IMG/VR virus record: IMGVR_UViG_3300020203_000032
Location: 1 to 42,732 of that record
DNA: 42,732 nt
DNA from: a virus
Direction: 5' to 3' (one strand)
Shown piece after piece: positions 2,598-38,298 of this stretch (position 1 is the stretch's first letter; each line of letters starts with the position of its first letter). Made by a program: the position numbers and the translations under genes. The notes beneath the pieces are model-generated. The model was not told where the DNA came from. It worked only from the letters and a program-made list of their open reading frames with translations, and ran no database searches.

Positions 2598-2978
2598 TTA
2601 CGTTATAATATTTTTAATCATTCTATATTTTAAAAATTCATCTAATGTCTCAGGAAGATAACTAAAAGAATGATCTTGACCATCCAATGATTTGTTCATA
2701 TCAGTATATATATCTTGGGTTAAATATTTACAAACCAAATCAATACATTCCTCTTCAAGAAATCCCCACTCTGATATATCTTGTAGAGAGTCATAGAACT
2801 CTACGCCTTGACCTGTTAAATTATAATATTCTTCGTATTTAATTTCTTGAAATTTTAATAGTGTATAGCCCTCAAATGTTCTTAAAACATTTGATAACCA
2901 ATCAGAAAAATCATCTATTAATAAGTCACTTAAGAATACAATTTTAGAGCCATTTAATGGCGTAACTTTATAATACAT
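2598..2978 (-). CDS. small protein, left-cluster paralog 1, C-terminal IIxxII signature
   Basis: A 126-residue protein of unknown function. It starts MYYKVTPLNG, which resembles the start of the next protein upstream (MNYYEVTY). In the last third it has TQDIYTDM and then LPETLDEF before the end MIKNIIT. The same succession (x-I-Y-x-E/D, then T-F/L-E/D-E, then the I-I tail) is present in the three genes upstream, so I take these four as a tandem paralog family. No signal peptide, membrane segment or metal motif is seen. It has no clear Shine-Dalgarno sequence; an AT-only stretch precedes the ATG. The gap of 58 bases to the upstream gene is the largest within this cluster. The stop codon overlaps the ribosome binding site of the glycosyltransferase gene. 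Confidence 0.8.
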   Translation of the reverse strand: MYYKVTPLNGSKIVFLSDLLIDDFSDWLSNVLRTFEGYTLLKFQEIKYEEYYNLTGQGVEFYDSLQDISEWGFLEEECIDLVCKYLTQDIYTDMNKSLDGQDHSFSYLPETLDEFLKYRMIKNIIT

Positions 2979-3036
2979 TAATTTATATTTTCTTTATAAT
3001 AATTATTTTACGGTTTATGTAATGTTTATTTTACAT

Positions 3037-3384
3037 TTATTCTATAATATTCTTAATTATAAACTCTTCAAACGTTTTAGGTAAATCATAATGCATAAAA
3101 TTTTGAGGGCAACCTAAAATTTCACGGTATATTTTTTCATTAATATATGGTAAAATTTTTGAAGGTATAGCATTGTATATATCTAAAAACTCTAGTAAAC
3201 TATTGATTATTCTATATTCGGTCTCTTGATGAGAAACTTCTCTAATACAAATCATTTTTAAATCACTTAAACTTAAAAAACAACTCAATAGATTAAATAT
3301 TTCGCTATCATTAAGTGTAGTGTATAGTATATTTTTGTTAGGCCAAAGTTCCTGATCAATATATGTAACTTCATAGTAATTCAT
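3037..3384 (-). CDS. small protein, left-cluster paralog 2, C-terminal IIxxII signature
   Basis: A 115-residue protein without a recognised domain. It begins MNYYEVTYID and ends LPKTFEEFIIKNIIE. Compared with the downstream paralog, the C-terminal region aligns as I-Y-R-E-I-L, then LP-x-T-F-E-E-F, then IIKNII. This is the clearest pair in the family. The ATG overlaps the TGA of the preceding gene (ATGA), so translation is coupled. There is no Shine-Dalgarno box, and TATAAA abuts the start codon. Function is unknown; a small intracellular accessory protein, perhaps for host takeover or counter-defence, is an inference from position only. Confidence 0.8.
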   Translation of the reverse strand: MNYYEVTYIDQELWPNKNILYTTLNDSEIFNLLSCFLSLSDLKMICIREVSHQETEYRIINSLLEFLDIYNAIPSKILPYINEKIYREILGCPQNFMHYDLPKTFEEFIIKNIIE

Positions 3385-3761
3385 TTTATAACATATTCTA
3401 TTAGAGCGTTATTATGAAATGTTTCAAATGTATTTTTAAATTCTTCTGGTTGTAAATATTGCATTTCCAAATAAAGCTCTTTTGATATGTTTTTCTTACA
3501 AAACATATCGCTTGAACTTAAGAGTTGATAAAAACCTTTGGGGGCACAAATATTATTAACATCAAGTATAGAAATGAGTGTTGCTCCATGAAACACTTCA
3601 CGAAACATTTTGGATAAATACGCGTGATCTAGATTTGTTTTGACAAAACTTGAACTTTTTTGTATTAACAAATCTTTTTTTATAAAACTTAAATCCAAGG
3701 TGTTGTGTTTAGAACCTAAAATGTTTGCTTTCCATATAAATTCTTTATATCCAATATTCAT
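3381..3761 (-). CDS. small protein, left-cluster paralog 3, C-terminal IxxVI signature
   Basis: A 126-residue protein of unknown function, starting MNIGYKEFIW and ending NTFETFHNNALIEYVIK. It carries the family pattern SKELYLEM followed by NTFETF and then the tail. It is the one member in which the first isoleucine of the final pair is replaced by valine (YVIK). Three cysteines are scattered and do not form a zinc motif. It overlaps the next gene by four bases (ATGA), and only one base separates it from the stop of the previous gene. A weak AGAG precedes the ATG, inside the end of the upstream gene. Confidence 0.78.
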   Translation of the reverse strand: MNIGYKEFIWKANILGSKHNTLDLSFIKKDLLIQKSSSFVKTNLDHAYLSKMFREVFHGATLISILDVNNICAPKGFYQLLSSSDMFCKKNISKELYLEMQYLQPEEFKNTFETFHNNALIEYVIK

Positions 3762-3762
3762 A

Positions 3763-4182
3763 TTACTCTATAATCTCTCTAATAATAAATTGTTTTTTTG
3801 TTTCTTCAAGAGTGCTGCACAGCAAGGAAAATTCTTTCTTGGAAATAAATTTTTTTTCAAAATATTCTTTCTTTTTAAGATAAAACTCATTATATATTTT
3901 ATTATTAAAAAGTTTTAAAATATCCAATGTTATATTGACGCACGCTAAATAATCTGAAAAACAATTGTAAGTAAAATATAATGATGATACATCATCTGAA
4001 GAATCATTGTAAGGAAAATATGGATCTGAAAGATTTTTGATATTTAAATGCTGAATATCGATTATATCATTGCTAAAAATACTTTCTACAATTAAAATTA
4101 TATTTTTTATATTTTTACTTGCTTTGCAATTATTAATCGTGAAAATTTTTGCATGTTGAGTATGTATTATAATAAATTTCAT
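3763..4182 (-). CDS. small protein, left-cluster paralog 4, C-terminal IIxxII signature
   Basis: A 139-residue protein, starting MKFIIIHTQH and ending KKQFIIREIIE. The C-terminal half shows the family elements NNKIYNEF, then a lysine-rich insertion (about residues 104-118), then STLEET and the tail. The N-terminal half is rich in I, N, D and S and has no match I recognise. It starts five bases after the stop of the small lipoprotein gene, with AAGAG as ribosome binding site overlapping that stop. The four paralog genes therefore follow the lipoprotein in one operon. Confidence 0.78.
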   Translation of the reverse strand: MKFIIIHTQHAKIFTINNCKASKNIKNIILIVESIFSNDIIDIQHLNIKNLSDPYFPYNDSSDDVSSLYFTYNCFSDYLACVNITLDILKLFNNKIYNEFYLKKKEYFEKKFISKKEFSLLCSTLEETKKQFIIREIIE

Positions 4183-4187
4183 AACTC

Positions 4188-4343
4188 TTAAACTATCTTG
4201 TGCCCATATGCTGGAGGGTCAGCTTTTATATCTTTTATATCTTTTATATCTTTTATATTTTGAGTTGAATTTGGCCTTGCCTTAACGCAACTTATACTTA
4301 TTAAGGCTATTAAGATAATATATAAAATATTTCTTTGCAGCAC
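4188..4343 (-). CDS. small lipoprotein-like protein with KDI repeats
   Basis: A 51-residue reading frame from a GTG at 4343. Residues 1-19 are MLQRNILYIILIALISISC, a typical short basic start, hydrophobic core and cysteine, which looks like a lipoprotein signal peptide although the box before the cysteine (SIS) is not ideal. The mature part has three exact repeats of the triplet I-K-D and a proline-containing end ADPPAYGHKIV. If processed it would be a 33-residue outer lipoprotein, a size and build seen in Rz1-like outer spanins; that is an inference, as no inner spanin gene lies next to it. No good Shine-Dalgarno is visible before the GTG. Support comes from its place directly downstream of a strong sigma70-type promoter and from the tight junction with the next gene. 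Confidence 0.5.
   Translation of the reverse strand: MLQRNILYIILIALISISCVKARPNSTQNIKDIKDIKDIKADPPAYGHKIV
4224..4259 (-). repeat. 9-bp tandem repeat, four copies
   Basis: The plus strand reads ttttatatc three times in a row, followed by a fourth copy with one change at its last base. On the minus strand, in the frame of the small lipoprotein-like gene, it encodes the I-K-D repeats, so its length in multiples of three keeps the frame open. Slipped-strand expansion is the likely origin. Confidence 0.85.
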
Positions 4344-4441
4344 ATAAGAATGTTAAATTATTATTATATTATATTTTAATAAAATATGATTTTTAAAACT
4401 ATCCATATCTTAATGAAAATTTAATATACTATTTATCTTCA

Positions 4442-4469
4442 ATAATACTCTGTAACAGGCAAATGTCAA
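4442..4469 (-). promoter_or_regulatory. sigma70-type promoter for the left accessory operon
   Basis: On the minus strand a perfect -35 box TTGACA (4469-4464) is followed after 16 bases by TATTAT (4447-4442). Transcription would begin near 4435 and run into the small lipoprotein and the small paralogs. The -35 box overlaps the TGA stop of the 4466-4930 gene. This is the best housekeeping-type promoter I see in the window and suggests that the left operon can be transcribed by the host polymerase independently of the tail genes. Confidence 0.65.
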
Positions 4470-4930
4470 GCGATAATATCACAAATTTCAAAATTAGATT
4501 GTGTTGTTTTAAGTATTTTTTTCAACACCCTATCAACACTCTTTATTTTTTTAATATCTTCTGGGCTTAAATATTTGCTGTATCGTGAACTGCATAATAA
4601 ATTGAAGAATTCATTTATATTATATTTCAATTCATCTACATTAACACCAACTGTTTCGTGCTTAATAGTTAAACCTGGAATACTTTTCAATACATTAACT
4701 TCATCTAATGACTGTTTCCAACCAGAATTATTTATTCCAATCTGTTTTTCGTATACATCTTCTGGTAAAAACCCCATATAAAAAGGAACACTTACACAAC
4801 GAGCGTTTGCAGTTAAAAATAAACTCTGCATTAGTGACATTTGTTTATCATCAAGATAAATTTCAATATCTTCTGGCTTTAAAGATTTCTTGGTGTCTAG
4901 TTTTATTTTGATTTCTAACTTATGCTCCAT
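4466..4930 (-). CDS. unknown 154-residue protein with the C-terminal signature
   Basis: A 154-residue protein of unknown function. The N-terminal part is a charged beta-like segment (MEHKLEIKIKLDTKKSLKPE), the middle contains aromatic and glycine residues (FYMGFLPEDVY, NNSGW), and the C-terminal part is a lysine-rich helix region. It ends NFEICDIIA, matching the tail of the small paralogs although it shows none of their other family elements. AGGGA precedes the ATG, and the start lies inside the end of the zinc-ribbon gene, so it is translationally coupled to the tail genes upstream. The promoter of the next operon starts inside its stop codon. Confidence 0.8.
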   Translation of the reverse strand: MEHKLEIKIKLDTKKSLKPEDIEIYLDDKQMSLMQSLFLTANARCVSVPFYMGFLPEDVYEKQIGINNSGWKQSLDEVNVLKSIPGLTIKHETVGVNVDELKYNINEFFNLLCSSRYSKYLSPEDIKKIKSVDRVLKKILKTTQSNFEICDIIA

Positions 4931-5037
4931 CTTTCCCTCTGATTTGCTTTGCAGGCCTTACACTTCTGTCCATTTTTTGGAAATAAATTTAATATTTTTT
5001 TTAAACAGCAACCACTACATACTTTGGTTTCTTCCAT
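4915..5037 (-). CDS. 40-residue orphan zinc-ribbon protein
   Basis: A small gene starting at the ATG at 5037 with AGGAT-AGG in front of it, directly after the stop of the 972-residue protein. It encodes 40 residues with cysteines spaced C-x2-C, then C-x2-C (VCSGCC ... KCKACK), surrounded by lysine and arginine, and ends in TAG. The layout resembles the zinc ribbons found in front of phage HNH endonucleases, including those in this window, but without a nuclease domain. It could bind nucleic acid or be a remnant of such a nuclease. It overlaps the start of the next gene by 16 bases. Confidence 0.68.
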   Translation of the reverse strand: MEETKVCSGCCLKKILNLFPKNGQKCKACKANQRERWSIS

Positions 5038-5044
5038 CCTATCC

Positions 5045-7963
5045 TCAACTTAAAAACAACCCCTGAGTTTCATCAGGTGTAATAACCTGAACCTGATTAT
5101 TCCAACCAGCTTTTTTCAAATATGCTATTATCTGAATCTTTGTTACCATCGTCATATATATCTCATCTGCTGCATTGTTACTCAAAGTCATTTTAAGTAT
5201 GCCAGTACCATGATCTAAATAAACGCCAATCGTATCATCTACAACTATTCCATAGCCTTCGATTTCATCATACCCATCTAAGTTTTTATTAAAGGACTGA
5301 ATTGCTACATCAAAACGTATTCTATTTAATGCCAAATCCTCAGCTTGCACAGTAGAACAATCGGCATATCGAGCGCAGGCAAAACCAGCACTGGTTAGTC
5401 CGTTACCCTGGTCACGTAAGAGCTTGTCAAATATATTTAATGACACTTCACTCAATGGTGTCTCAGGCATTTGTAAAATAAATGTAGCTATCTCTAAATC
5501 ATTCTTGTAAAAATCTCCAGTAGGCGTTTTAATCTGTCCACCAGGAGCAATTACGATATCAGATGGAAAGAAAAATATGTTCTGGCCAGGATCACAAGCT
5601 ACAGGATCTCTCTCTAATGAGTCTTCACATGTAAATGGACTTGCCACAGAACAGCTAAGCAAACCAGTCGTATCTTTAACATAAGAAGATGGAACAGTTC
5701 TAGCATTAGAGCTGCCAGATAATAAATACTCCTGCCAGAAATCCTGAGGAACTACTCGATATTCTAACGCGACAAATGGTACGGCTCTATAGTAAGCATC
5801 AGAGTCAATTATTGAAGGTAAATAATTTCCGTAATATAAAGCATCAGTAGGATCTATTTCCTCTGGATTTAAAACATAACCGTCAAGATCAATATATCCA
5901 TCACAACTATAGTAACCGTCATATCGCCCAACCATATTCTGAACAGTTAAATCTATATGAGTAAAACTTGTGCCAACTGGAAATGCATTAATTTCTTTAT
6001 TTAAAAATTGTTGTAGAAGATCGTAATCTTGCGCAGATACATAACCATCACCATTAACATCGGCTCTTAAAAGATTTAACAATGTGAAATACCCATCAAC
6101 CAGCTTTTGTTGTGTGGATGGATAATGAATTGATTCTCCAATTAAATCTGAAAGCAATAGTAAATCTTCATTTGTTATAAGACCATCGCCATTAACATCT
6201 CCGTATCCATCAATGCATACATCAACTTTAGCAACCAAATAACCAACGTTTGAAAAATTATAATCCGGCAACAACTTACTTCCAAGCAATTGTTGTGATA
6301 ATAAGTCAGGGCTAGGATCTATTATAGTAAACTTATCACCTTTAGCTGAGCCAGGGAAATTTTGTGTCGCAATAATTGTGCTATTATCTTTAGGATTATT
6401 ATCTTCTATACAACCAACAATTAAAGGGTCAGATGTTTCTTTCAGAGTTGAAAGATCTGCGGCACCAACAAAGCTGAATTCTGGAACAAATTGTTGACGT
6501 GAATATACTTGGTTGCCAGTTTTCTGATCTTGCTCCTCAATACTTGCAAACTTAACAGCTTTTAAGACGCCTGTATTCAAACTGCTATAGCCCGTTGTAA
6601 CAAATGGAAAATATTTTTCTTGGTTATCAATTTCGGAACCAGTTATAGGATCTGTTTTTGTTTTAGTAAAAGCTATCCCGTTACCGGCATCATAGCCTTG
6701 ACCAGAAGCAATTTGAACGGAATCTGACCAAATTTGGTACCATAGGTCCTCCTCAACTACATCTGCCCATGTCCCACTACTAAATAAAGTTAATCTTGCA
6801 TCCTCAGTTCTGTCCGTTCCAACTTCAGCAAAAATAGTTCCATTACCAGCAGATCCGGATCTGCGAATAGTAAATGCATAATACTGGTCTTTATTAATAC
6901 CTCCTGGCACTGAGACGCTAGATCCGTTGACAACAAAATCAACAGGTTGAGCTACATCGGTTAATAGATAACCAGCTGATAATAATTCAGCTTGGCTGAA
7001 ACTTAACTCAACAAGTGCAATTGGGTTAGGTTCAAATTCAATTGCTAGACCTGGAATGATATCATTCACACAATTGACTGTTGTTTGTAATTTATGAATG
7101 CTAAAAATTATATCACCTGACCAGTTAAAGCGGTCAGTTAAACTTGCACTATCATTAGGTTGTACACCTAAGAGTATAGTTACTTTTTGAATATTATCTG
7201 AGTGTGATAAAAACTTTTCACCTAATCTTGATAAGGTATCGCCTGACTCTAATGTTCTGGATGGTTGACCAGTAATATTAATCTTTAAACTATCAGCATT
7301 ATATTGAGGACCTATACCATCCTGAATCGTAACATATAGTGCTTTAGAAGGGTCTGCCACTTTAAAATCACGAAAGAATATATTTGGTTGTTCATCTTGA
7401 CTGGAAGTTATTGGGCGTTTAGAAAGTTGAAATGGTTTTGCTTCTTGAATAATTATTGTTCCGCCATGATTAGCTGAGCAGTAATTATTACCTTTAAAAT
7501 CATTAAAAAGAATTGTCAGTACTCTTTTATAATGCTGAGATGTAGTTTTGGTTCCATTACGATAAAAATACATTCTATCCATAATGAGATCATCATTAAA
7601 AGACAATCCAATAATACAAACCTTAGTACTTAATCTACCGAACACTTCTGATCCTGTCAATATTACTTCCAGCTGATTACCAAGATTAATATCAGTGGGT
7701 TGTTTAGCTACGGAGAGACCTGTTCCGTCAAAATTATTTGCAGAAACAAGGCCTGCTTGGACAGGTGTAAGCTCATCAGAATTAAAAATTATATTAGGAA
7801 TTAAGCTATCGGCCAATACGCCTGAGCCAAAGAAGTTACCAACAATAGCCGCAGAAGTTTGTATATTATGAGCTTGTTCAAGATCCATATCTGATTTATC
7901 AATATTTTGAGAATCATGAAACAAGTTTTGTAAAGTTGATACAGGTAATTTGGGTGTAGTCAT
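5045..7963 (-). CDS. virion baseplate/fibre-associated protein with dockerin domain
   Basis: A 972-residue protein, the last large gene of the tail operon, so probably an exposed baseplate or fibre component. The N-terminal 500 residues are beta-rich with many N, G, S and T and no domain I can name. Residues about 583-655 form a complete type I dockerin: two calcium loops, DVNGDGLITNED (589-600) and DVNGDGYVSAQD (635-646), each followed by a leucine-rich helix. A further D-x-D-G-Y loop (CDGYIDLDGYVLNPEE) comes soon after. The tripeptide DGY occurs seven times. The C-terminal third begins near a cysteine-containing stretch and ends TQGLFLS. The start at 7963 has a weak AGAGAG box, 11 bases after the fibre-like gene. 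The role in virion assembly or host attachment is inferred. Confidence 0.88.
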   Translation of the reverse strand: MTTPKLPVSTLQNLFHDSQNIDKSDMDLEQAHNIQTSAAIVGNFFGSGVLADSLIPNIIFNSDELTPVQAGLVSANNFDGTGLSVAKQPTDINLGNQLEVILTGSEVFGRLSTKVCIIGLSFNDDLIMDRMYFYRNGTKTTSQHYKRVLTILFNDFKGNNYCSANHGGTIIIQEAKPFQLSKRPITSSQDEQPNIFFRDFKVADPSKALYVTIQDGIGPQYNADSLKINITGQPSRTLESGDTLSRLGEKFLSHSDNIQKVTILLGVQPNDSASLTDRFNWSGDIIFSIHKLQTTVNCVNDIIPGLAIEFEPNPIALVELSFSQAELLSAGYLLTDVAQPVDFVVNGSSVSVPGGINKDQYYAFTIRRSGSAGNGTIFAEVGTDRTEDARLTLFSSGTWADVVEEDLWYQIWSDSVQIASGQGYDAGNGIAFTKTKTDPITGSEIDNQEKYFPFVTTGYSSLNTGVLKAVKFASIEEQDQKTGNQVYSRQQFVPEFSFVGAADLSTLKETSDPLIVGCIEDNNPKDNSTIIATQNFPGSAKGDKFTIIDPSPDLLSQQLLGSKLLPDYNFSNVGYLVAKVDVCIDGYGDVNGDGLITNEDLLLLSDLIGESIHYPSTQQKLVDGYFTLLNLLRADVNGDGYVSAQDYDLLQQFLNKEINAFPVGTSFTHIDLTVQNMVGRYDGYYSCDGYIDLDGYVLNPEEIDPTDALYYGNYLPSIIDSDAYYRAVPFVALEYRVVPQDFWQEYLLSGSSNARTVPSSYVKDTTGLLSCSVASPFTCEDSLERDPVACDPGQNIFFFPSDIVIAPGGQIKTPTGDFYKNDLEIATFILQMPETPLSEVSLNIFDKLLRDQGNGLTSAGFACARYADCSTVQAEDLALNRIRFDVAIQSFNKNLDGYDEIEGYGIVVDDTIGVYLDHGTGILKMTLSNNAADEIYMTMVTKIQIIAYLKKAGWNNQVQVITPDETQGLFLS
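5999..6217 (-). other. type I dockerin domain within the 972-residue protein
   Basis: Two EF-hand-like loops of 12 residues with D at 1, N at 3, D at 5, hydrophobic at 8 and D at 12 are separated by 34 residues, and each is followed by a helix containing LLLL or DYDLLQQFL. This is the duplicated F-hand arrangement of cellulosomal dockerins, which bind calcium and a cohesin partner. No cohesin domain is recognisable in the window. Confidence 0.85.
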
Positions 7964-7974
7964 TATTCTCTCTT

Positions 7975-20076: not shown

Positions 20077-22130
20077 TAATTACCACCATTTCTACTTACG
20101 TCACCAGCATCTCTTCTTGGTAATGTCTCAGAACTAATTGCATCAACAAATGTATATGGTATTTGTCTTATCGCAAATTTAGTCGTTTGACCTTCAGCAA
20201 TTATAATATCTTGAAAATATTGCCCGTTATACTGAACACTTAAATACCCATCTCCAGCTACATCAGAAGTTATATCAGCTAAGAAACTTTCATATCCATC
20301 ATACACAAAACCAGTAATGTTACCTAGCGTTACATTTCCAGATAAATATCCGTCCATCACACCACTGACTTCTTCAGGAATGCTTGTTGATAAGATTGAG
20401 CCTGTTGGGTCTTTTAATATTACAGTTGTTTTTATTGGTCTGGTTATAAACTGAACATCAGGATCAATAGTTACTGTTGATTTAAACACGCTCGCAGCTG
20501 CAACTAACGCATTTAAATAAGACCCTAAAACTTCTTTCTTAAAGTTTAATAAACATAATGTTATCTCATCTTGAAATATTAACGCGGTATCTCCATTTAA
20601 ATCAGAACGTAACCTTTGTAAAGCTTGTATAGAACATTCATATGCCGCTGTTGGGTTTGGTAACGGGCCCATCTTATCAAAAACAGATTGTATACCTTCA
20701 GTATTTAATCTTGCATTTTGTGCCGCTATCTCTGCGCTAATTTCAGGGATACAACCAACAGTTATCAAATTATTTTGTAATAAAACAGGATACGTATATG
20801 ATAAAGTAAATCCAATATTTGGTATAATATAACCATCATCGAAAGCTGGAAAAAATATGCTAGCATCATAATGTATAAAAGTACCTAATGTTGCATTTAC
20901 ACCATTAACTTTATAAGGTGTTATTCCATTTGCTTCATATACTAAACCACCAATTAATGATGCCGTCCCCTGTACATTTAAAGATGGATTTGGCTGATTA
21001 TTAAAGCCTATTGGATATGGTGTTGGCTCCTGACGAATTACAGCTTCTTTAATTATGAATTTTCTAGCCCCACCAAGATCTCCTGAATGAAATGGTTCGG
21101 GATCAAAATTTTCTAATGTCAATTCGACCGTGTAAGGTACCATTTGTGGATTGGAATATCCGTCATAGGTAGCTTCAATTGGCCAAAAGTTTGTTCCTCG
21201 GCTGTTTGGTGCTATAATTTCATCTATGCTTGAAATAGGATTAACAGCCTCATCAAAAATCTGCCATGACTCCACTCTCTGTGCTGGAAGAGAGGCCTCT
21301 GGAAAACCGGAAAAATTTCTTAAATCATAATTAATTTGTTTGTAATAAAGAAGTGTTCCGGAAGTTGTTATTATACCATCTGGAGAAGCAACGACAAATG
21401 GAGGACATGAGTCAGAATCTCCACCACTACAGATTAGTCGACCTGCCAGCTTAGCTAAAGCTTCAATAATTGCTATCACTGATGCAATTGCTACTAAAAT
21501 TCCTAATATGTTTTCAAGATTACATAAAAGAGCTGCAATTTTTGTAATCGTTGCAATAATTGCATCCTCATCTTGCAATTGAAGACCATTAACTAAAGAT
21601 ACTATATTTGCAATAAGATCTTCTATAATTTTAATTATAGCCGTGATAATATAAATAATTAAAGCAATTATTAATAATAAAAATGTTACAATCATAACTA
21701 ATAATGCGATCCATGGGAAAAGATCAAGAAATGGCGGCAGACATTGTGTGAATAATTTTATGACGGCAGGAATAAGATCCCATGGGGAAAAAAGTGCGCA
21801 AATTATGTCAATAATACACATCACTAGATTTAACAATGCCTGAATAAATGAATAAAGAGAAAGGAATGGGCTAAGCTGACTTAGAACACTTGATATAAAA
21901 TTCATGATATCATTCATGAGTTCTGTTGGAACAATTGGATTAAGTTTCATCCCAAATGGAAGTTTTTGAATAAGAGTTTGGATTAAACTTAGTACATCTA
22001 GTGGAATCTCAGGAAAATCAATGTTGAGATTTGGCTGTATAGGTGATAGACTAGGTAGAGAAAATCCTGGTAGAATTATACTAGGTGGTGAAACTATTGT
22101 TATATTAAGTGAGTTTACATTACATGGCAT
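20076..22130 (-). CDS. baseplate-region protein with long hydrophobic segments
   Basis: A 684-residue protein if started at the ATG at 22130, which has AAAGG eight bases before it; an earlier in-frame ATG at 22163 lies inside the HNH gene and lacks such a box. Residues 92-116, 138-167 and 196-227 are long hydrophobic segments (for example IALLVMIVTFLLLIIALIIY) that would pass as membrane helices. The region before them is rich in proline and leucine. The rest is beta-rich with five DGY tripeptides, three of them spaced 17-18 residues apart near the C-terminus. Its gene lies among baseplate genes, so a protein that enters or touches the host membrane during injection is a reasonable inference. 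No family is recognised. Confidence 0.85.
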   Translation of the reverse strand: MPCNVNSLNITIVSPPSIILPGFSLPSLSPIQPNLNIDFPEIPLDVLSLIQTLIQKLPFGMKLNPIVPTELMNDIMNFISSVLSQLSPFLSLYSFIQALLNLVMCIIDIICALFSPWDLIPAVIKLFTQCLPPFLDLFPWIALLVMIVTFLLLIIALIIYIITAIIKIIEDLIANIVSLVNGLQLQDEDAIIATITKIAALLCNLENILGILVAIASVIAIIEALAKLAGRLICSGGDSDSCPPFVVASPDGIITTSGTLLYYKQINYDLRNFSGFPEASLPAQRVESWQIFDEAVNPISSIDEIIAPNSRGTNFWPIEATYDGYSNPQMVPYTVELTLENFDPEPFHSGDLGGARKFIIKEAVIRQEPTPYPIGFNNQPNPSLNVQGTASLIGGLVYEANGITPYKVNGVNATLGTFIHYDASIFFPAFDDGYIIPNIGFTLSYTYPVLLQNNLITVGCIPEISAEIAAQNARLNTEGIQSVFDKMGPLPNPTAAYECSIQALQRLRSDLNGDTALIFQDEITLCLLNFKKEVLGSYLNALVAAASVFKSTVTIDPDVQFITRPIKTTVILKDPTGSILSTSIPEEVSGVMDGYLSGNVTLGNITGFVYDGYESFLADITSDVAGDGYLSVQYNGQYFQDIIIAEGQTTKFAIRQIPYTFVDAISSETLPRRDAGDVSRNGGN

Positions 22131-22956
22131 TTTTATTACCTTTTTTAATATTTTCAAGCGCACATAATGGTCTTAAATTATTTAATGCCCAGCATGCTTC
22201 AATTTCTCTTAAATTCATTGAATTATCATCGTTAATAAAATTAAAAATACTTTGTGGTATAATATGATCTACATGCCACTTACGTATGCCATCGTTTTTA
22301 TAGATGCCCCAATTATCCCATGTCATCCAAGATTCAAATTGATATTCTAAATGATTTTTTAAATCATTAATTGTATAATTTAGAAAATCTAATTTCGATC
22401 CATTACTATTATTAATTAAATAAGATCTCATAGATCTTGAAATATTATTTTTTAACTTATAAGAAAGATCATTGTCTCTTCTGTGTTTTCTACGTTTGTT
22501 TTTTTCTTTTGTTTTTAATTCATCCGTTAATATTAAATCAAGCGGTTTAAAAAACTCTTTATCTTCATCTTTTAATAAAGGTAATCTTATTTGTGAAATA
22601 AAATTTGGATATTTTTTAATATTTCTTAATTTTTCCTGTTCTCTTTTTTTAGAAGTGATAGATTCTCTATTTTTATGATATTTTTTTCTTTCTTCAGCCC
22701 TGACGTTTTGGTTATAACAATTATTTGAACATGTTTTTTGTTTATTGCCATTTATTAAATATTGTTTATTACAAATAATGCAAACTCTTGGTATAGAAAA
22801 ATTATTTAAATTATTTGGTTTTTTATTTTTATAATAATCTTGCAACCATTGTTTTTTACAAAATTCTGAACAGCGTTTACTATTTATAGTTCCATCATAT
22901 AAAGAACCACAAACTTCACAGCATTTTTCTGTTAATTTATTTACATGATTCCACAT
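22120..22956 (-). CDS. HNH homing endonuclease (copy D)
   Basis: A 278-residue HNH nuclease. The N-terminus has two treble-clef-like zinc fingers (CCEVCGSLYDG ... CSEFCKK and CIICNKQYL ... CSNNCYN). A basic linker follows, then HLEYQFESWMTW, a segment shared with the other HNH proteins here, and the catalytic HNH motif WHVDHIIPQS (H228, D230, H231) with ACWALNNLRP and the final N. It is inserted between the spike gene and the membrane-segment gene. It begins three bases after the spike stop (AGGA box), and its last 11 bases overlap the start of the next gene, so the tail operon is not interrupted. Probably a free-standing homing nuclease. Confidence 0.92.
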   Translation of the reverse strand: MWNHVNKLTEKCCEVCGSLYDGTINSKRCSEFCKKQWLQDYYKNKKPNNLNNFSIPRVCIICNKQYLINGNKQKTCSNNCYNQNVRAEERKKYHKNRESITSKKREQEKLRNIKKYPNFISQIRLPLLKDEDKEFFKPLDLILTDELKTKEKNKRRKHRRDNDLSYKLKNNISRSMRSYLINNSNGSKLDFLNYTINDLKNHLEYQFESWMTWDNWGIYKNDGIRKWHVDHIIPQSIFNFINDDNSMNLREIEACWALNNLRPLCALENIKKGNKNAM

Positions 22957-30103: not shown

Positions 30104-30107
30104 ATAC

Positions 30108-31190
30108 TTATCCTACATCAAATGGGTCTAAAATTGAATTCAAAAATTCATTGGTTACACCTGGAATTAAATTTAAGCCGTTTTGACCAGGATCAACAAA
30201 CGGTGAATTTAAATTTGGCTGATCTACTCTGTTTGGTGTTGGTACGATACCACCATCTGTTACAAGACCACCATAACTGTATGCTGTACCATAATTGGGG
30301 TTAGAATTACTTTGGCCAGTACTTGGACTTCTGTGCCAGCCTAGATAATTTTGGCGATAACCTCTTTTTTGAGTGACTACAAAGTTCATTGTGTAAGTAA
30401 ACATACCTAAAACTTCTGAACGTTCATCCACAACAAAGTCAGTAAAATAACCTCTGTAAACTTCCCCACTCCAATACATCTCAACCGTAAAAGCTAGACT
30501 TGCCGGAGTAGGCTTGTTGCGAGTTGCTGTTGGGTTACCGCCGACAACAGAGCTTTCAACCGACCCTAAAGCTCTACCTAACGAGTTACCAACAGAGTTG
30601 GCTACGTTACCTGCTGCGCCTAATAAAACACCACTAATAATTGATGTTCCTAAGTTTGCTGCGTTGCCATTTAAACCACCTAATCCAAATATATCTTCGG
30701 ACAATTCTTGTTGTCGTAAACGATCGCTTTCAGCTGCTAATGCTAAAGCGTAAGGGTCAAACATTAACTGTTCATTACGGTAAATATCATATAAAATATT
30801 TATACCTTCAATACCAGAAGTTCCAGTAGTTCCCGATATTCTAAGCGTAGCCAAATCTTCTCCCCAATATTGTAATGCAAAACCACCCTTCGTTCTCTGT
30901 TTATTGATTTCTTTTTTATAACTATAAGTAATATTTTCAGGATTAACATACATCTCTATCATTGGTTGCTCTGGAACCAACCACTTAACTACACTTCTTT
31001 TTGTAACAGCTGTACGGTAATTTGGAACCCTGCTTTGTCGTGTGCCTAATCCTGATACTGTCGGCTGTCCATTAACGGAATAACCATTTGCTAAACCAGA
31101 ATTAAAGCGATCTCCAATTAATCCGCCATTAGCTGTTAAAATTCTACCAGCTGCTTCAAACGGATCTTGTGGTTGTCTAGGATTTGCCAT
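30108..31190 (-). CDS. tail tube-baseplate junction protein (XkdP position)
   Basis: A 360-residue protein between tape measure and hub, the place of XkdP or of T4 gp48/gp54-type junction proteins. A compact N-terminal domain contains IEMYVNPENITYSYKKEINK and GFALQYWGEDLATLRISGTT, a pattern typical of proteins that nucleate the tube on the hub. An alanine- and glycine-rich stretch (about 165-215) looks flexible. A second beta domain follows (FTVEMYWSGEVYRGYFTDF, YTMNFVVTQKRGY), then a proline-rich tail. No LysM motif is visible. AAGG lies six bases before the ATG. Confidence 0.75.
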   Translation of the reverse strand: MANPRQPQDPFEAAGRILTANGGLIGDRFNSGLANGYSVNGQPTVSGLGTRQSRVPNYRTAVTKRSVVKWLVPEQPMIEMYVNPENITYSYKKEINKQRTKGGFALQYWGEDLATLRISGTTGTSGIEGINILYDIYRNEQLMFDPYALALAAESDRLRQQELSEDIFGLGGLNGNAANLGTSIISGVLLGAAGNVANSVGNSLGRALGSVESSVVGGNPTATRNKPTPASLAFTVEMYWSGEVYRGYFTDFVVDERSEVLGMFTYTMNFVVTQKRGYRQNYLGWHRSPSTGQSNSNPNYGTAYSYGGLVTDGGIVPTPNRVDQPNLNSPFVDPGQNGLNLIPGVTNEFLNSILDPFDVG

Positions 31191-31198
31191 ATTTTACC

Positions 31199-33133: not shown

Positions 33134-33140
33134 TTATCCT

Positions 33141-33497
33141 TTAATTAGTAATTAATTTTCTTTTTCTTCTCACTCTTCTATGCAAAGATAAGCTATTATT
33201 CTCGCTTGTGTTTTCTTGTTCAAATAGCTTTTTAGTATTTTCATTAAATTGTTCATCACTAATATCTATACTGTTTGTATTTAACATTTTTTTAGCCGCT
33301 TCAGGGTTAGTAAATGAACCAAGAAAAATACTAAAATCTTTCCATTTATTATAATCATCTTCCTGATCTTTTATCCAACTAGTATACATCCATAACCATG
33401 TTATTGAATCTATATCTTCAAAAAAATTATCATCAGGTAAGATTTGATAAGTTTTGCATAAGAACCAGATGAATCTATGATCTGGTTCAGCTATTAT
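33141..33497 (-). CDS. tail assembly chaperone, frameshift-encoded C-terminal part (gpT-like)
   Basis: This open frame encodes 118 residues starting with the ATA codon at 33497 and ending ...RKRKLITN. It has an internal ATG at 33389, but the coding frame is open and aromatic-rich upstream of it (IIAEPDHRFIWFLCKTYQIL) back to a stop codon just before the A7 run at the end of the preceding gene. The only window in which the two frames can be joined is that run, so this part is made as a fusion to the 223-residue upstream protein by a -1 shift. This is the gpG-gpT arrangement of tail assembly chaperones: same place before the tape measure, same direction of shift. An independent protein from the ATG at 33389 has no Shine-Dalgarno and would lose the first 36 residues. 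Confidence 0.83.
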   Translation of the reverse strand: MIAEPDHRFIWFLCKTYQILPDDNFFEDIDSITWLWMYTSWIKDQEDDYNKWKDFSIFLGSFTNPEAAKKMLNTNSIDISDEQFNENTKKLFEQENTSENNSLSLHRRVRRKRKLITN

Positions 33498-34165
33498 TTT
33501 TTTACGTTATCGGAAATCTCCTTATCATTTTTACCAATTAAACCCAATCGATCCATATTTGATTTAGTAATCTGACTGTATTTATTATATAAATGATCAA
33601 TTACCTCTTCAGCAAATTCAGCCATTAAAGCCATCTTGTCTTCAAATTGATTCGATTGAATTACATCCTCTAAATCTTTTCCATCAATTTTATATAAAGA
33701 CCAAGCTAATGTTGCATACTTTATATAGTAAGATTGCTCTAATGTGTCTTTTATCTTGCTGCCGTTTGTAAATAATTCTTTTTGTTCTCTGGACTTCAAA
33801 GATCTTAATGAAAATACATGACCATCAATCGTTTCTTCTAAATTAGCTCGACCAATACCAGTAAGTATTTCTAAAGATGACCTGGCATATTCTGGAATAT
33901 CATCTTTTTTACGCAACTTTTCTATATCTTTATAACCAAGTATATCAGCATCTTGTTTCGGTCTTTGACTTTTGATAAAACCATTAGTTTGCTCGGCTGC
34001 TTTTTCTGCCTTGTAGGCTTGCTGAAACTCTTCAGGAAAGTCGTCGCTTACATCAGCCGTGGTATCTTCAACCGTAAGTGTGCGTTGATGATTGCCAAAT
34101 GATGTGCGACCCAATGATGATGTCATTGTTCCTTGTTTACTGCCAAATTGAGGGTCTTGAGACAT
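33494..34165 (-). CDS. tail assembly chaperone, short form (gpG-like)
   Basis: A 223-residue protein between tube and tape measure. An AGGAG box lies five bases before the ATG at 34165, so I prefer it to the upstream ATG at 34213. The N-terminus is disordered (SQDPQFGSKQGTMTSSLGR); the middle and end are helical (SREQKELFTNGSKIKDTLEQ, YIKYATLAWSLYKIDGKDLE), as in tail chaperones that coat the tape measure. The last codons are GTA AAA AAA TAA: the A7 run is a -1 slip site directly before the stop. Most ribosomes would stop here to give the short form and a minority would shift into the downstream frame. Confidence 0.85.
   Translation of the reverse strand: MSQDPQFGSKQGTMTSSLGRTSFGNHQRTLTVEDTTADVSDDFPEEFQQAYKAEKAAEQTNGFIKSQRPKQDADILGYKDIEKLRKKDDIPEYARSSLEILTGIGRANLEETIDGHVFSLRSLKSREQKELFTNGSKIKDTLEQSYYIKYATLAWSLYKIDGKDLEDVIQSNQFEDKMALMAEFAEEVIDHLYNKYSQITKSNMDRLGLIGKNDKEISDNVKK
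33497..33503 (-). promoter_or_regulatory. -1 ribosomal frameshift slippery site A AAA AAA
   Basis: Seven consecutive A on the minus strand, in the correct phase for a X-XXY-YYZ site (the shift occurs over AAA AAA), stand immediately before the TAA of the short chaperone. The -1 frame has a TAA eleven bases before this stop, so the shift window is only about four codons wide and contains this heptamer. I did not find a strong downstream stem. Confidence 0.82.
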
Positions 34166-34284
34166 AATGCTCCTGTGAATAGAATAGATTTTAGTTAAAA
34201 GTAATTTAACCAATATAATTGTTCATAATGATATATATCAGCTATTTTTAAAGCTGATTATAATATAAAATCTATTTACAAGGA

Positions 34285-34310
34285 TAGGCGGCACCTATTG
34301 GTACCACCTA
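34285..34310 (-). terminator. hairpin after the tail tube gene (attenuator or mRNA end)
   Basis: In the 167-base gap between the tube and chaperone genes, 22 bases after the tube stop, the RNA can form an 11-bp stem (arms TAGGTGGTACC and GGTGCCGCCTA, two G-U pairs) closed by an AATA tetraloop. No T-run follows, so it is not a classical intrinsic terminator. It may stabilise the tube mRNA 3' end or reduce read-through into the chaperone genes. A second, 7-bp inverted repeat (ATCAGCT/AGCTGAT, 34237-34258) lies further along the same gap. I see no gene in this gap. Confidence 0.6.
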
Positions 34311-34332
34311 CGGTCATTGTTTAATACATTAA

Positions 34333-34989
34333 TTATAATGTATTGCCGTCAAATGCATTTATGAGGCCTGCTGCGTCAAGGGCTCCGCGATAAGTTCCTC
34401 TATCAGCCTGTTGCTCAAAAGGATTGACAGCAATTGGAATACCACGATTATTTGGATTACCTACAACGCTCGATTCACCATCGCCACGATAAGATTCAAT
34501 TGATTCACAAACAAATGACATATTTTCTGAAATTATAAATGACTCAGATTCGTAAGAATAGCTAATTGATTTAATCCAAACATTTCGAAGTGTTGTAATA
34601 ACAATATTACTATCATCTGACCCTTGAAAATTATCCATAATTACTATATCAAACGGAACTCTTTGAGCGCTTACGTGAACATAACCTCTAAGAAACGCTT
34701 CGGCAATTCTTTGTCTATTAAAACGTATTCTGGAACAATCACCACTAATTTCAGTAGATGCTGTTGGTGCTGAGTCAATACTACCATCTGTTCCAACCTC
34801 ATTAACCATCTTAATTGAACGTGATTCATTAATTGAAAGTTTCTGGACAGCTCCAACGGCTACACCCTCAATAAGAATCGCGATATTTGTAGATAGATGT
34901 GTTGCAGTCCCTGACTTACCCTCGCCACCACTGGCATTGGAAAAGTTATTAATGGGTGTATCACCAATGTTATTAAGCCTAACTGGCAT
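34333..34989 (-). CDS. tail tube protein
   Basis: A 218-residue beta-rich protein, probably the subunit of the inner tail tube, with the sheath gene upstream (though separated from it by inserted genes) and the chaperone and tape measure downstream. Strands with alternating hydrophobic residues (NIAILIEGVAVGAVQKLSIN, VWIKSISYSYESESFIISEN, MSFVCESIESY) fit the tube fold. The N-terminus is glycine- and serine-rich. AAAGGA precedes the ATG. The leader carries three 12-bp repeats and an overlapping small frame. The assignment rests on length, strand pattern and order. Confidence 0.82.
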   Translation of the reverse strand: MPVRLNNIGDTPINNFSNASGGEGKSGTATHLSTNIAILIEGVAVGAVQKLSINESRSIKMVNEVGTDGSIDSAPTASTEISGDCSRIRFNRQRIAEAFLRGYVHVSAQRVPFDIVIMDNFQGSDDSNIVITTLRNVWIKSISYSYESESFIISENMSFVCESIESYRGDGESSVVGNPNNRGIPIAVNPFEQQADRGTYRGALDAAGLINAFDGNTL

Positions 34990-35038
34990 ATTTATCCTTT
35001 TTAATCAAAAACATAATCAAAAACATAATCAAAAACAT
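34979..35038 (-). CDS. possible leader peptide (MFLI repeats) upstream of the tail tube
   Basis: The three 12-bp repeats before the tube gene each begin with an in-frame ATG and read M-F-L-I. Together they give a 19-residue frame, MFLI three times followed by KKDKYAS, that ends with TAG eight bases after the tube ATG, in another frame. The Shine-Dalgarno of the tube gene lies inside this frame, so ribosomes translating it would cross the tube start and could reinitiate. There is only a weak AGAAAG in front of the first ATG. It may be chance produced by the repeat. Confidence 0.22.
   Translation of the reverse strand: MFLIMFLIMFLIKKDKYAS
35003..35038 (-). repeat. 12-bp tandem repeat, three perfect copies, before the tail tube gene
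   Basis: The plus strand carries aatcaaaaacat three times without change. A degenerate fourth copy (aattaaaatata) follows. It fills the 68-base gap between the end of the HNH gene and the tube start. Function unknown; it may be slippage or a binding site in the tube leader. Confidence 0.88.
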
Positions 35039-35057
35039 AATTAAAATATAGTTCTTT

Positions 35058-36623
35058 CTAAAGAGATACAATAATATTACCTATTATAACCGGATTTCTA
35101 TTTTCAAAATTGTAATTTATATTTAATTCTTGTTTTAATATTATATTTTTATTTTTACTCCATTCATTAATATATGTATTGAACAAAATATGATTATGCC
35201 TGATTCGACTGTAACCATCGATAACATTTTGTTTCGCAGAATAAGGTCGAAGATTACTAAGAGCCCAACATGCTTTAAAATGTTCATCATTCATAGTTGA
35301 GTATTCGTACATGGAGTGGCAGGTAAAATGATCGGTTTGCCATAACCAGGTTGATTTATCGTTATCATCCCAGGTTGCTTTACTATAAGAACCGTGATTG
35401 TTCCAATTCATCCACGGTTCAAAGAGAGATTCGAAATGATCTCTCAACTCTTTTACTGTAAATGGCAGTTTTTCAAAGCAAGATGACCCTTTGCTTAAAT
35501 TCTTATTAGAAAAATATTGTTCTATTGCACAAGAAACCGATTTTCTAATAATTCTTGATGGTTCTTTAGACAGAGTAATTTCTTTTTTATAACCAGACCT
35601 CCATTCACAATATTTTTTAGCATCATGCCATTTTTTATTATTATAAATATCCAATAATAATTCAGTATTATTTTTACTAAGATCAAGTTTGTTATTTGAA
35701 TAATTTTTTATTTTTGCAAAAATATCTTGACACATAGTACATATTCTATCTGTAGATTTATTAGGCCCTGATATAAAACATATCTTATCTTTAACAAAAT
35801 GACATGTGGCACATTCTCTTTTTTCATTAATAATTGGATAAAATTTTGCACATTTATATTTTAAAGTTGATTCATATAATTGTTTTTCTATTTTCTTTTT
35901 TTCACTAATATCAAGCTCATATTTTTTATAATATTCTATACCGTTTTTCAAATCCTTATTCATAATTAGATCAAAAACTTTAAGATAATTTGTGCTTTTA
36001 TATATATTATATAAACGACCCCAAAGGCTAACGCACTTTAAACACTCTATCTTTCGGCCTGGGAAACAGTTTGTTTTCTTGATGGATGAACAAGTTTTAC
36101 ACTTTCTTAAACCAATATCATATAACAAGTCGTTTTTTTTATTTTTTCTGATACATGTAATTTTTAATCCGGCTTCTTGTAAACATTTTCTTATAGTTTT
36201 CTTATCACGATTAAAGAACTTTGCTATACTGCCAATAGATGGGCGGTCTGAACCTTTATACATTTTTACTACACTTTGAGTTAAATTTTGTGGTCGCGGC
36301 TCAAATTTATTTCTAATTAAACCGTGATGCTTAATATAGTAATCAATTGTATTTCTTACTAATGAAATATTTATATTATTCTCTGTACTTATTCTCCTCT
36401 CAAACTTACCTTTATTATACTCTTTAATAATTAAATTTTTAAATTCCTGATCCGGATATGCTTTTTTTATTCGATTAGGAATTAAATTAAGCTTATTAAT
36501 AAAACCGATCATACTGGTGCAAGTGACGCCTAAACGCTTTCCTATTTCATTAGCTGTTAAATTTTCAGAATGTAATCTTTTAATTTCATCTTTTTGTTCA
36601 TTGTTTAATTCTTTGAACTTCAT
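35058..36623 (-). CDS. HNH homing endonuclease with HTH and zinc ribbons (copy C)
   Basis: A 521-residue free-standing HNH nuclease. The N-terminus has at least two helix-turn-helix units (EIKRLHSENLTANEIGKRLG; SIGSIAKFFNRDKKTIRKCL), which probably recognise DNA. Two zinc ribbons follow (CKTCSSIKKTNCFPGRKIEC-L-KC near 175-195 and CATCHFVKDKICF ... CTMCQD near 275-305). The C-terminal block has HFESLFEPWMNWNNHGSY, then WLWQTDHFTCHS and ACWALSNLRP with the final AKQN. The first block is almost identical to that in the right-edge HNH gene. An AAAGG box lies before the ATG, and the gene ends in TAG. It lies directly upstream of the tail tube, so sheath and tube genes are pushed apart. Confidence 0.92.
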   Translation of the reverse strand: MKFKELNNEQKDEIKRLHSENLTANEIGKRLGVTCTSMIGFINKLNLIPNRIKKAYPDQEFKNLIIKEYNKGKFERRISTENNINISLVRNTIDYYIKHHGLIRNKFEPRPQNLTQSVVKMYKGSDRPSIGSIAKFFNRDKKTIRKCLQEAGLKITCIRKNKKNDLLYDIGLRKCKTCSSIKKTNCFPGRKIECLKCVSLWGRLYNIYKSTNYLKVFDLIMNKDLKNGIEYYKKYELDISEKKKIEKQLYESTLKYKCAKFYPIINEKRECATCHFVKDKICFISGPNKSTDRICTMCQDIFAKIKNYSNNKLDLSKNNTELLLDIYNNKKWHDAKKYCEWRSGYKKEITLSKEPSRIIRKSVSCAIEQYFSNKNLSKGSSCFEKLPFTVKELRDHFESLFEPWMNWNNHGSYSKATWDDNDKSTWLWQTDHFTCHSMYEYSTMNDEHFKACWALSNLRPYSAKQNVIDGYSRIRHNHILFNTYINEWSKNKNIILKQELNINYNFENRNPVIIGNIIVSL

Positions 36624-36647
36624 ACTAAACCTTTCTATTATGAGCCT

Positions 36648-36689
36648 GTTTAAAATTATTTGAAGTTGTAAATTTAAATAATTTTAAAC
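36648..36689. promoter_or_regulatory. 14-bp perfect inverted repeat in the divergent intergenic region
   Basis: Arms gtttaaaattattt and aaataattttaaac (36648-36661 and 36676-36689) are perfect reverse complements with a 14-base spacer. It stands between the minus-strand HNH gene and the plus-strand island, near the start of the HNH mRNA and about 85 bases before the promoter of the island. It could be an operator for a dimeric regulator or a hairpin in the HNH leader. The rest of the 183-base gap holds the promoter and no gene. Confidence 0.6.
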
Positions 36690-36772
36690 ATAATAAATTC
36701 AAACTTTATCGAAATCTGGTTCTGCAAGAATATATAAAATAAAATATTAGTATCATAGTCACGTTTTTACCA

Positions 36773-36800
36773 TTGCAATTACGCCACTATATGTTATAAT
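36773..36800 (+). promoter_or_regulatory. extended -10 promoter placing the transcript start at the ATG
   Basis: TTGCAA (36773-36778) and TATAAT (36795-36800) are 16 bases apart, with a TG in the extended -10 position (36792-36793). The ATG of the first island gene begins seven bases after the last T of the -10 box, where transcription is expected to begin. The mRNA would therefore have no or almost no leader. No Shine-Dalgarno is present, in agreement with that. Confidence 0.68.
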
Positions 36801-36806
36801 GAAAAT

Positions 36807-37112
36807 ATGTTAACTCCTGACCAAGAAGAACAATTAAGAACATGGTATGAACTTTGTACTATAAATGCAGTTGCTGAAACATCTCCTTATCAAAATTATG
36901 ACACTGATTTTAAAACAGTAGAGTATTATAATGATGGCAATTTATTATGTTCTAAGTATACAGATTTAGCTATATTTACAGATTTTGAAAATCTTGGTTT
37001 AATTAAAATATCAAGTATAAAAATGTATGATATATTGTTTGAGTTAACTTTATCTGAAGAATTAAAAAATAAATTTGATTCTGAAATATTAATTATGAAT
37101 ATAATTCAATAA
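36807..37112 (+). CDS. small island protein 1, possible winged-helix fold, C-terminal signature
   Basis: A 101-residue protein of unknown function, first gene of the plus-strand island. It starts MLTPDQEEQLRTWYELC, which resembles the next gene (MFTYNQEHALQAIWYCIN). It has FENLGLIKI in the middle, like the end of a winged-helix domain, and ends EILIMNIIQ. I infer a small wHTH-like fold from helix, helix and a LGLIKI wing-like strand, with low certainty. It appears leaderless, since its ATG is seven bases after a TATAAT box. Its stop overlaps the next ATG by one base (TAATG). Confidence 0.82.
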   Translation: MLTPDQEEQLRTWYELCTINAVAETSPYQNYDTDFKTVEYYNDGNLLCSKYTDLAIFTDFENLGLIKISSIKMYDILFELTLSEELKNKFDSEILIMNIIQ

Positions 37113-37360
37113 TGTTTACTTATAATCAAGAACATGCATTACAAGCTATTTGGTATTGTATAAATAAATGGCTTTATATTGAAAAACACGATAAATATTT
37201 AATAAAAACATATGTCGATCTTGAAAAATTAAAATATGTTAAAATTGATCAAAAAATATATGCAAATAAGTGCTACAAAGTATCTTTAATGAAAAATCCT
37301 CCCGAACTATTAATTGAGAAGTGGAAAAATGAAAAATTAATTAAGGATATTATAGAATGA
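37112..37360 (+). CDS. small island protein 2, paralog of protein 1, C-terminal signature
   Basis: An 82-residue lysine- and tyrosine-rich protein. The start MFTYNQE and the middle DLEKLKYVKIDQKIYANKCY align with protein 1 (DFENLGLIKISSIKMYDILF), so I take it as a diverged duplicate. It ends EKLIKDIIE. It overlaps the previous gene by one base. A TATAAT box also lies six bases before its ATG (37100-37105), the same spacing as for protein 1, but its -35 partner TTGATT is 19 bases away, so a second promoter is uncertain. It overlaps the next gene by four bases. Confidence 0.82.
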   Translation: MFTYNQEHALQAIWYCINKWLYIEKHDKYLIKTYVDLEKLKYVKIDQKIYANKCYKVSLMKNPPELLIEKWKNEKLIKDIIE

Positions 37361-37572
37361 AATATTATATTGGCTTTTACTCCAAGGATATGATAAGATT
37401 TTGGCCTAAAGAACGTCATTTAGCAGATAGTGTAAATATATCAGATGGTATTAGTTTTACATCTAGAAAAAAAGCTGAAGAATATTTATATTTAGAAATT
37501 GGAGATTATGAATATAATGTTTCAAAAGTTTTTAGTCATGATGAAATTTTAATAGCAAACATTATAAAGTAA
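37357..37572 (+). CDS. small island protein 3, C-terminal signature
   Basis: A 71-residue protein starting MKYYIGFYSKDMIRFWP and ending HDEILIANIIK. The pattern of a Y-I-G-F-Y strand, a charged loop, a helix with SRKKAEEYLYLE and a Y-E-Y strand is common among small phage proteins of unknown function. Its ATG overlaps the TGA of the previous gene (ATGA), and AAGGA stands nine bases before it, inside the end of gene 2, so translation is coupled. A 42-base gap follows. Confidence 0.8.
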   Translation: MKYYIGFYSKDMIRFWPKERHLADSVNISDGISFTSRKKAEEYLYLEIGDYEYNVSKVFSHDEILIANIIK

Positions 37573-37614
37573 AAAGTTATATTTAACTTGCATCTACACA
37601 AATGATATGATAGA

Positions 37615-37866
37615 ATGAACTTTACAGAACAAGAACTTTTTATCTTAAATTATCTTTTTGATATTAATAATAAACATAGATGGATAACTTACTATCCTCA
37701 TATTAAAGATCAGCATAGTGTTACTTGTATAAATCTTATATCTAAAGGGTATTTAAAACCTGTTCATAATAAAGAAAATAGAGCTTGCCCCACTACGAAT
37801 TATTTTTCTCTTCCACTCATTCAACAGAAAATCAATAATCACTTAATTAAAAAAATTATAGAATAA
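37615..37866 (+). CDS. small island protein 4, possible winged-helix fold, C-terminal signature
   Basis: An 83-residue protein, MNFTEQELFILNYLFDIN..., with an N-terminal F-T-x-Q-E pattern as in proteins 1 and 2 and a stretch VTCINLISKGYLKP that looks like helix 3 and the wing of a winged-helix domain. It ends NNHLIKKIIE. It has no Shine-Dalgarno. The sequence just before its ATG, GATATGATAGAATGAA, is almost the same as the junction of genes 2 and 3 (GATATTATAGAATGAA), although here it is not the end of a gene. DNA binding is an inference. Confidence 0.8.
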   Translation: MNFTEQELFILNYLFDINNKHRWITYYPHIKDQHSVTCINLISKGYLKPVHNKENRACPTTNYFSLPLIQQKINNHLIKKIIE

Positions 37867-37875
37867 ATTAGTTAT

Positions 37876-38298
37876 ATGAATATTATTAATCTCAAAAAAT
37901 TTTTTCTTTCAAAATTAAATAATTCTTTATTTATTTCAGAAAAAGAAAAACCTATTATTTTATCTATACTTAAAAAACTAGACTCAAAAAGTTATTACTC
38001 TCAAGCTTTACATTTTGGTTATTCCGAAGAACTTGAAAATCAACTGTTAAAATCCAAGAATGTTTGTGACATGTTTCTTTGCTTAAGTTTTTTTAAATCA
38101 GATACCGAAAAAATAATTAAACGCATCTATAAACTAGATAAACAATATTTAATTAATTTCGTGCTAACAAATATGAAAAACCATCAAAGTTTTAGCCTTA
38201 CTCAGGAGAAAAACACAAAAATATTGGAAGTATGTAAATTAATTCCAGGTATGAATAAAGCTTTGATGGATTTAATGATAGAAGATATTATAGATTAA
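37876..38298 (+). CDS. small island protein 5, helical, C-terminal signature
   Basis: A 140-residue, lysine- and leucine-rich, mostly helical protein, starting MNIINLKKFF and ending KALMDLMIEDIID. It is different from the other island proteins except for the tail. The N-terminus is basic, and the middle has LCLSFFKSDTEKIIKRIYKLDKQYL. No Shine-Dalgarno is visible; the gene follows nine bases after gene 4. It faces the minus-strand HNH gene end to end with a 44-base AT-rich gap that holds no strong terminator. Confidence 0.8.
   Translation: MNIINLKKFFLSKLNNSLFISEKEKPIILSILKKLDSKSYYSQALHFGYSEELENQLLKSKNVCDMFLCLSFFKSDTEKIIKRIYKLDKQYLINFVLTNMKNHQSFSLTQEKNTKILEVCKLIPGMNKALMDLMIEDIID

Follow-up and report, generated by a model that had tools for sequence, protein, structure and literature searches.

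A C-terminal tail shared by unrelated small proteins of a huge-myophage lineage, apparently an undescribed phage tag

All ten small inserted open reading frames (ORFs) in a 42,732-nucleotide stretch of viral DNA, IMG/VR record IMGVR_UViG_3300020203_000032 (hereafter the window), end at their last codon in the pattern Φ-I-x-x-[IV]-I-x, with I at position -6, [IV] at -3 and I at -2. One tail on dozens of unrelated small proteins, with other endings in related viruses, suggests that these accessory proteins share one partner. The phenomenon is real and strong, and it is apparently undescribed. Our preferred explanation, which we hold at slightly better than even, is that the tail is a putative docking helix through which lineage-specific accessory proteins would attach to one common partner. 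The genes of huge phages mostly encode small proteins whose function is unknown. A tail that these proteins share, and that is specific to the phage, is a first sequence handle that places ~100 such proteins per genome in one functional class, and it predicts a common partner that could be retrieved with a 10-residue bait.

A sequence-only reading of the window had listed ten such endings, and all ten read as it gave them (Table 1). It had also described the structural and HNH proteins as free of the tail; this is borne out, and extends to the glycosyltransferase. Its claim that every small accessory protein carries the tail holds for these ten but not for a 51-codon ORF (4188-4343, minus strand) with a GTG start and a lipoprotein-like N-terminus, the only tail-free small ORF in the first tagged cluster. 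An endonuclease at 214 (ending SLNIIK), offered as a possible eleventh member, was rejected: its ending is due to chance, because it has no I at -6, and in two tagged relatives the homologous proteins end ..NNTRSQ and ..CPKCNY. A strict form of the pattern matched 8 of the 15 small ORFs in the window, compared with 0 matches at any of 23 internal offsets in the same ORFs and a mean of 0.02 when their last 15 residues were shuffled. Pfam and PHROG searches with the ten proteins identified no convincing family.

The window is a 42.7-kb piece of a huge myovirus, 32% GC and Ile-rich, in which a sheath, a baseplate wedge, a gp25-like protein and a glycosyltransferase were recognised. Relatives of the sheath are found on contigs of up to 452 kb, which lack either small-gene cluster at the corresponding places. 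Closer relatives are G010 (459 kb), G017 (435 kb) and G020 (85 kb), with 61-65% identity in the sheath and about 30-62% in other structural proteins. A sheath tree grouped the window, G010, G017 and one fragment (support 98/97) but did not resolve the placement of G020 inside this group. These sequence comparisons place the window in a clade of myoviruses of 435-459 kb. Among isolates, Bacillus phage G is nearest, with 28.6% identity over 40% of the baseplate protein; a nucleotide search of phage records with the window gave no match, nor did a baseplate-protein scan of viral contigs, for which the patterns were over-strict.

A DNA pattern for L-I-K-[ND]-I-I-E-stop had six matches in IMG/VR, five of which look like chance. 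The sixth is G007 (131 kb), with an array of ~16 small zinc-ribbon-like proteins, nearly all ending ..LTCDExIIKNIIE. A broader pattern brought in G010, G017, G020, G007 and G008 as multi-copy records, and G027 with fewer copies. The strict pattern was found in 77/588 small ORFs of G010, 82/529 of G017, 48/163 of G007 and 19/39 of G020, where internal offsets gave means of 0.09 and shuffles means of 0.07-0.53. No match was present in the four relatives that lack this tag, G091, G092, G003 and G077, whose sets of small ORFs numbered 326, 251, 484 and 422 in the order tested. With a looser pattern, tagged ORFs number 109 in G010 and 98 in G017, and the load reaches about one ORF in seven (~100 in one genome). 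The core of the tail occurs 92 times at C-termini in G017 and twice internally (133,715 residues). C-terminal enrichment, the check that the sequence-only reading had proposed, thus stands far above both controls in the window and four related records, and the rate expected from background is near zero. An origin by chance in an Ile-rich proteome, which the composition of the window would invite, is refuted by the internal-offset, shuffle and reversed-pattern controls together with the zero matches in the four tag-free relatives, and its probability is negligible. A genome-wide scan of bacteria and archaea yielded 63 isolated matches and no arrays, which we took as chance. The clade consensus is [LI]-[ST]-x-[DN]-E-Φ-[IM]-I-[KR]-[DEN]-I-I-E-COOH, with a last residue that is mostly E, followed by K, T, Q and N.

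The bodies ahead of the tail differ, as had been proposed from the window. When proteins were grouped into clusters by similarity of the body alone, one tail triplet recurred across 39 body clusters of G010 and 68 of G017, and any triplet at internal offsets across at most 5-7. Tagged bodies in G010 and G017 include zinc ribbons (A3), DUF4116 repeats (Pfam PF13475) and unknown folds, to which G007 adds HREDGPA repeats. Among tagged proteins of 80-259 residues, 0/73 and 0/77 have a homologue in four tag-A-free relatives, against 128/423 and 120/368 of their untagged counterparts (p = 5e-11 and 2e-12); the tag therefore marks lineage-specific accessory genes. Homologues that keep the body without the tail had been named as a point against a signal. 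On the shared bodies found here, the presence of the tail goes with the phage: HREDGPA-repeat bodies with 47-59% identity end DEEWIIFQIIN in the tagged G007 and IDGKRYKLEEV in the untagged G091, and the RuvC of G027 (L119:4631-5233) ends RREQMIKDIVE, its homologues in G092, G010, G017 and G008 being tail-free. As judged from these pairs, it is the phage that the tail tracks, and not the body. Many of the tagged genes are clear paralogues arranged in tandem (zinc ribbons, DUF4116 and HREDGPA repeats), as would be expected if one ancestral gene had been duplicated, its bodies had diverged and the helix were a functionless remnant of the fold. The unrelated folds, the RuvC enzyme and the repeat family with tail-free relatives are at odds with such descent, and retention of the tail during body turnover would still need selection; descent may explain the spread of the tail but not its upkeep, and we consider it improbable as the whole explanation. 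HREDGPA-repeat (MORN-like) proteins form large families in huge phages (L027 and L028 of G007; L287-L291 of G091). The ..KRYKLEEV endings of G091 were considered as a further tag and rejected, as they belong to a single homologous repeat family.

Codon use indicates that selection acts on the protein and not on the DNA. The invariant Ile positions in G010 use all three codons (at -6: ATT 35%, ATC 42%, ATA 23%), and all three stop codons follow tails. A variant tail, I-x-[EQ]-[VI]-M-[ED]-S (..VMES), has 18 matches in G098 (427 kb, locus GC 44%) and 36 in G099 (436 kb, locus GC 54%), with 0 in the controls, and its Ser is written with both codon families, AGY and TCN. Since variants occur in these higher-GC phages, the same hydrophobic pattern spans about 24% to 54% GC. 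It is very improbable that a DNA-level element, such as a ribosome binding site, a TATAAT-like promoter or a recombination seam, merely happens to encode the tail. Many tagged genes do overlap the next start (GAATGA), some tails contain a Shine-Dalgarno-like AAGGAT, and several genomes use ATA in excess at -3 and -2, but all synonymous codons are used, including ATC and both Ser families, the tail is kept across this range of GC, and tails also precede convergent genes and gaps over 100 bp. Within the window, the tail of the ORF at 37876-38298 has no overlapping start signal because the next gene is convergent. Codon use and the tails before convergent genes led us to reject the idea of a ribosome binding site or operon junction.

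In AlphaFold2 models, the tail is predicted to form a C-terminal helix in each of two unrelated folds, a zinc ribbon (helix residues 60-69; mean predicted local distance difference test score, pLDDT, 89) and a helical solenoid of DUF4116 repeats (helix residues 245-262; mean pLDDT 94, dropping to 59 over the last three residues). The [ST]-x-[DN]-[DE] ahead of the helix appears to resemble an N-cap, and the helical moment of the tails in G010 and G017 (0.41-0.42) is a modest gain over shuffled sequences (0.34-0.36). A fold search with the zinc-ribbon model gave nothing significant, the best hit being a WRKY domain (E 0.71).

For a docking helix, the following mechanism is envisaged. The tag would be a capped amphipathic helix of ~10-13 residues, [ST]-x-[DN]-[DE]-Φ-[IM]-I-[KR]-[DEN]-I-I-E-COOH, which one huge-myophage lineage fuses to many fast-evolving small proteins. 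Tagged proteins would all attach to one common partner, presumably a single receptor, and their variable bodies (zinc ribbons, DUF4116/HREDGPA repeats, unknown folds) would each recognise targets of their own, the likeliest being proteins of the host or of defence systems, and the constant tail would deliver these bodies to a shared machine. If this holds, a bacterial virus would be using a modular adaptor system in which one constant plug carries variable bodies, and the change of tag between phages would show how such a system stays private. F-box, PRANC and SOCS-box adaptors are large families of variable binding bodies with a constant short terminal docking box. They follow the same logic, but these boxes belong to eukaryotic ubiquitin systems and the likeness is in design only. 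The C-terminal tip of SSB and the T4 C-termini that bind the sliding clamp are short peptides that dock on one hub protein; their sequences differ from the tail, and they have few clients, as opposed to ~100 ORFs per genome. The idea of a signal proposed from the window therefore stands to the extent that the tail is tag-like, being C-terminal, selected as protein, restricted to accessory proteins and phage-specific; the signal may be one of sorting, docking or degradation, read by a putative receptor.

Sorting or self-association, with the helix routing proteins to a phage compartment, a condensate or the virion, is a possible but unlikely alternative to docking. Encapsulation peptides of bacterial microcompartments (BMCs) share the design, a short terminal amphipathic helix on unrelated cargo, with one hydrophobic face and the ability of the helix to self-assemble (PMC12339742), and the raised helical moment of the tails is in line with this. 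Such peptides usually measure ~18 residues, have a disordered linker and come with a BMC shell, whereas the phage tail is strictly C-terminal with a free acidic or polar end, and no BMC shell gene (PF00936) was found in the ten tagged records, control genomes being positive. Import into the phage nucleus by the PicA pathway resembles the tag system in its selective handling of many huge-phage proteins, but its cargo in PhiKZ-like phages has no terminal signal sequence (PMC11087766). Moreover, the tagged proteins are accessory, with the exception of one RuvC, whereas such a compartment would need proteins of replication or of the virion.

A degradation tag, read by a host or phage protease that keeps early proteins short-lived, seems less likely still. 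Such a role would fit a strictly C-terminal tail, as ssrA and other degradation tags are read at the extreme C-terminus independently of the body, and the phage encodes a possible metallopeptidase and AAA+ pair. However, the tail ends in a polar or acidic residue (E, K, T, N, Q) and lacks the small hydrophobic end, Ala-Ala or the like, that known ClpXP tags have, it is encoded in each gene, and its 10-13 conserved residues exceed what a degron needs. The transfer-messenger RNA (tmRNA) tag of G017 itself ends ..LTAAAA, another signal. Phage-encoded tmRNA genes are present in G017 (tag ANDNADLTAAAA) and G077 (tag ANDNAYAAAA); tmRNA was rejected as the source of the tail, from which these tags differ.

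Different endings recur in other huge phages. G003 carries R..x.LK[AVCS]F[WL] (..LKAFW) on ~20 proteins, and the triplet R-9 K-4 F-2 spans 14 body clusters. Near the DUF2201 genes of other huge phages, [KR][LI][KR]..L.F[SL] ends 37/751 ORFs in nine body clusters (internal-offset control, 0.3), and locus L366 ends ..LLKEII. A conserved gene of 157-188 amino acids (aa) lies directly 3' of DUF2201 in L390, L377, L383, L393 and L395, ending ..PKLKLYNLFS in several phages. Loci around DUF2201 cannot test a link between DUF2201 and the tag, because DUF2201 was used to find them.

An AAA+ ATPase and a DUF2201 protein are among the genes that tagged genomes have in common and that G077, G091 and G092 lack. 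The DUF2201 protein has an HExxH motif (DUF2201_N metallopeptidase domain) and a VWA domain with DxSxS. Both genes are present in every fully examined tagged genome (G003, G007, G010 and G017), a count that leaves out short fragments and G098, G099 and G113, which were found through their DUF2201 gene. In some of these genomes the pair sits beside tagged genes or in their midst; in G017, 12/19 neighbours of the pair are tagged (rotation test, 0.03). MoxR AAA+ proteins with VWA partners (NorQ/NorD, RavA/ViaA) offer a parallel, in that the tagged phages combine an AAA+ gene with a VWA protein whose site is of the metal-ion-dependent adhesion site (MIDAS) type; the phage protein differs from NorD and ViaA in its DUF2201_N domain, and any tie to the tag is guesswork. 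Such VWA proteins use the MIDAS to bind acidic residues of their targets (PMC9976466), and one may speculate that such binding would fit the acidic tail. The pair is not sufficient for the tag, because phages without a detectable tag carry it too, and for this reason we regard it as a weak candidate receptor and doubt that it is the partner. Such pairs are common in huge phages and also occur in isolates such as AR9 and Murica. A more specific version of docking, to which we also give little credence, is a private lineage-specific C-terminal address code, in which a helical plug would link changing binding modules to one phage-encoded machine, possibly AAA+/DUF2201, so that host and defence proteins are remodelled or destroyed in a targeted way. 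Plugs would differ between related phages, and co-infecting phages would therefore not cross-load.

Several points weigh against a docking helix with a common partner. No direct test yielded a receptor, and no isolate carrying the tag turned up. The proximity of tagged genes to AAA+/DUF2201 was not significant in G010 (0.27) or G007 (0.56), and the isolates with DUF2201/AAA+ (phage G, AR9, Murica and an Acinetobacter phage) showed no tag in the parts read, most being partly sampled. In the zinc-ribbon family, the model makes the tail part of the fold with high confidence, and so the tail could also have a structural role there. The known families compared with the tail each fail a defining feature, and what is new is apparently a genome-wide private C-terminal phage tag. 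The sequence-only reading knew of no described phage system with this tag, and our literature search, of limited coverage, likewise found no account of one.

Table 1 Tagged ORFs of the window and AAA+ plus DUF2201 pairs in other genomes
Feature	Position	Strand	Tail and remarks
126-aa ORF	2598-2978	-	..RMIKNIIT; tail codons and stop 2598-2621
115-aa ORF	3037-3384	-	..EEFIIKNIIE (3037-3060); closest to clade consensus
126-aa ORF	3381-3761	-	..ALIEYVIK; most divergent of the ten
139-aa ORF	3763-4182	-	..QFIIREIIE
154-aa ORF	4466-4930	-	..FEICDIIA
101-aa ORF	36807-37112	+	..SEILIMNIIQ (37089-37112)
82-aa ORF	37112-37360	+	..NEKLIKDIIE
71-aa ORF	37357-37572	+	..DEILIANIIK
83-aa ORF	37615-37866	+	..NHLIKKIIE
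140-aa ORF	37876-38298	+	..LMIEDIID
AAA+ plus DUF2201, G010	L127:10696-13547; L128:6780-13622		
AAA+ plus DUF2201, G017	L112-L113		
AAA+ plus DUF2201, G003	L336		

Identical tail DNA lies at the ends of two contigs from one metagenome (L114:170-193, in G020, and G024:28915-28938). From this sequence match, the G020 and G024 contigs may be one phage, perhaps together with G007. HNH-type endonucleases stand between structural genes of the window at 22120-22956, 35058-36623, 38343-39506 and 42165-42731 (minus strand), and one of the window's HNH-type endonucleases overlaps the start of the following structural ORF.

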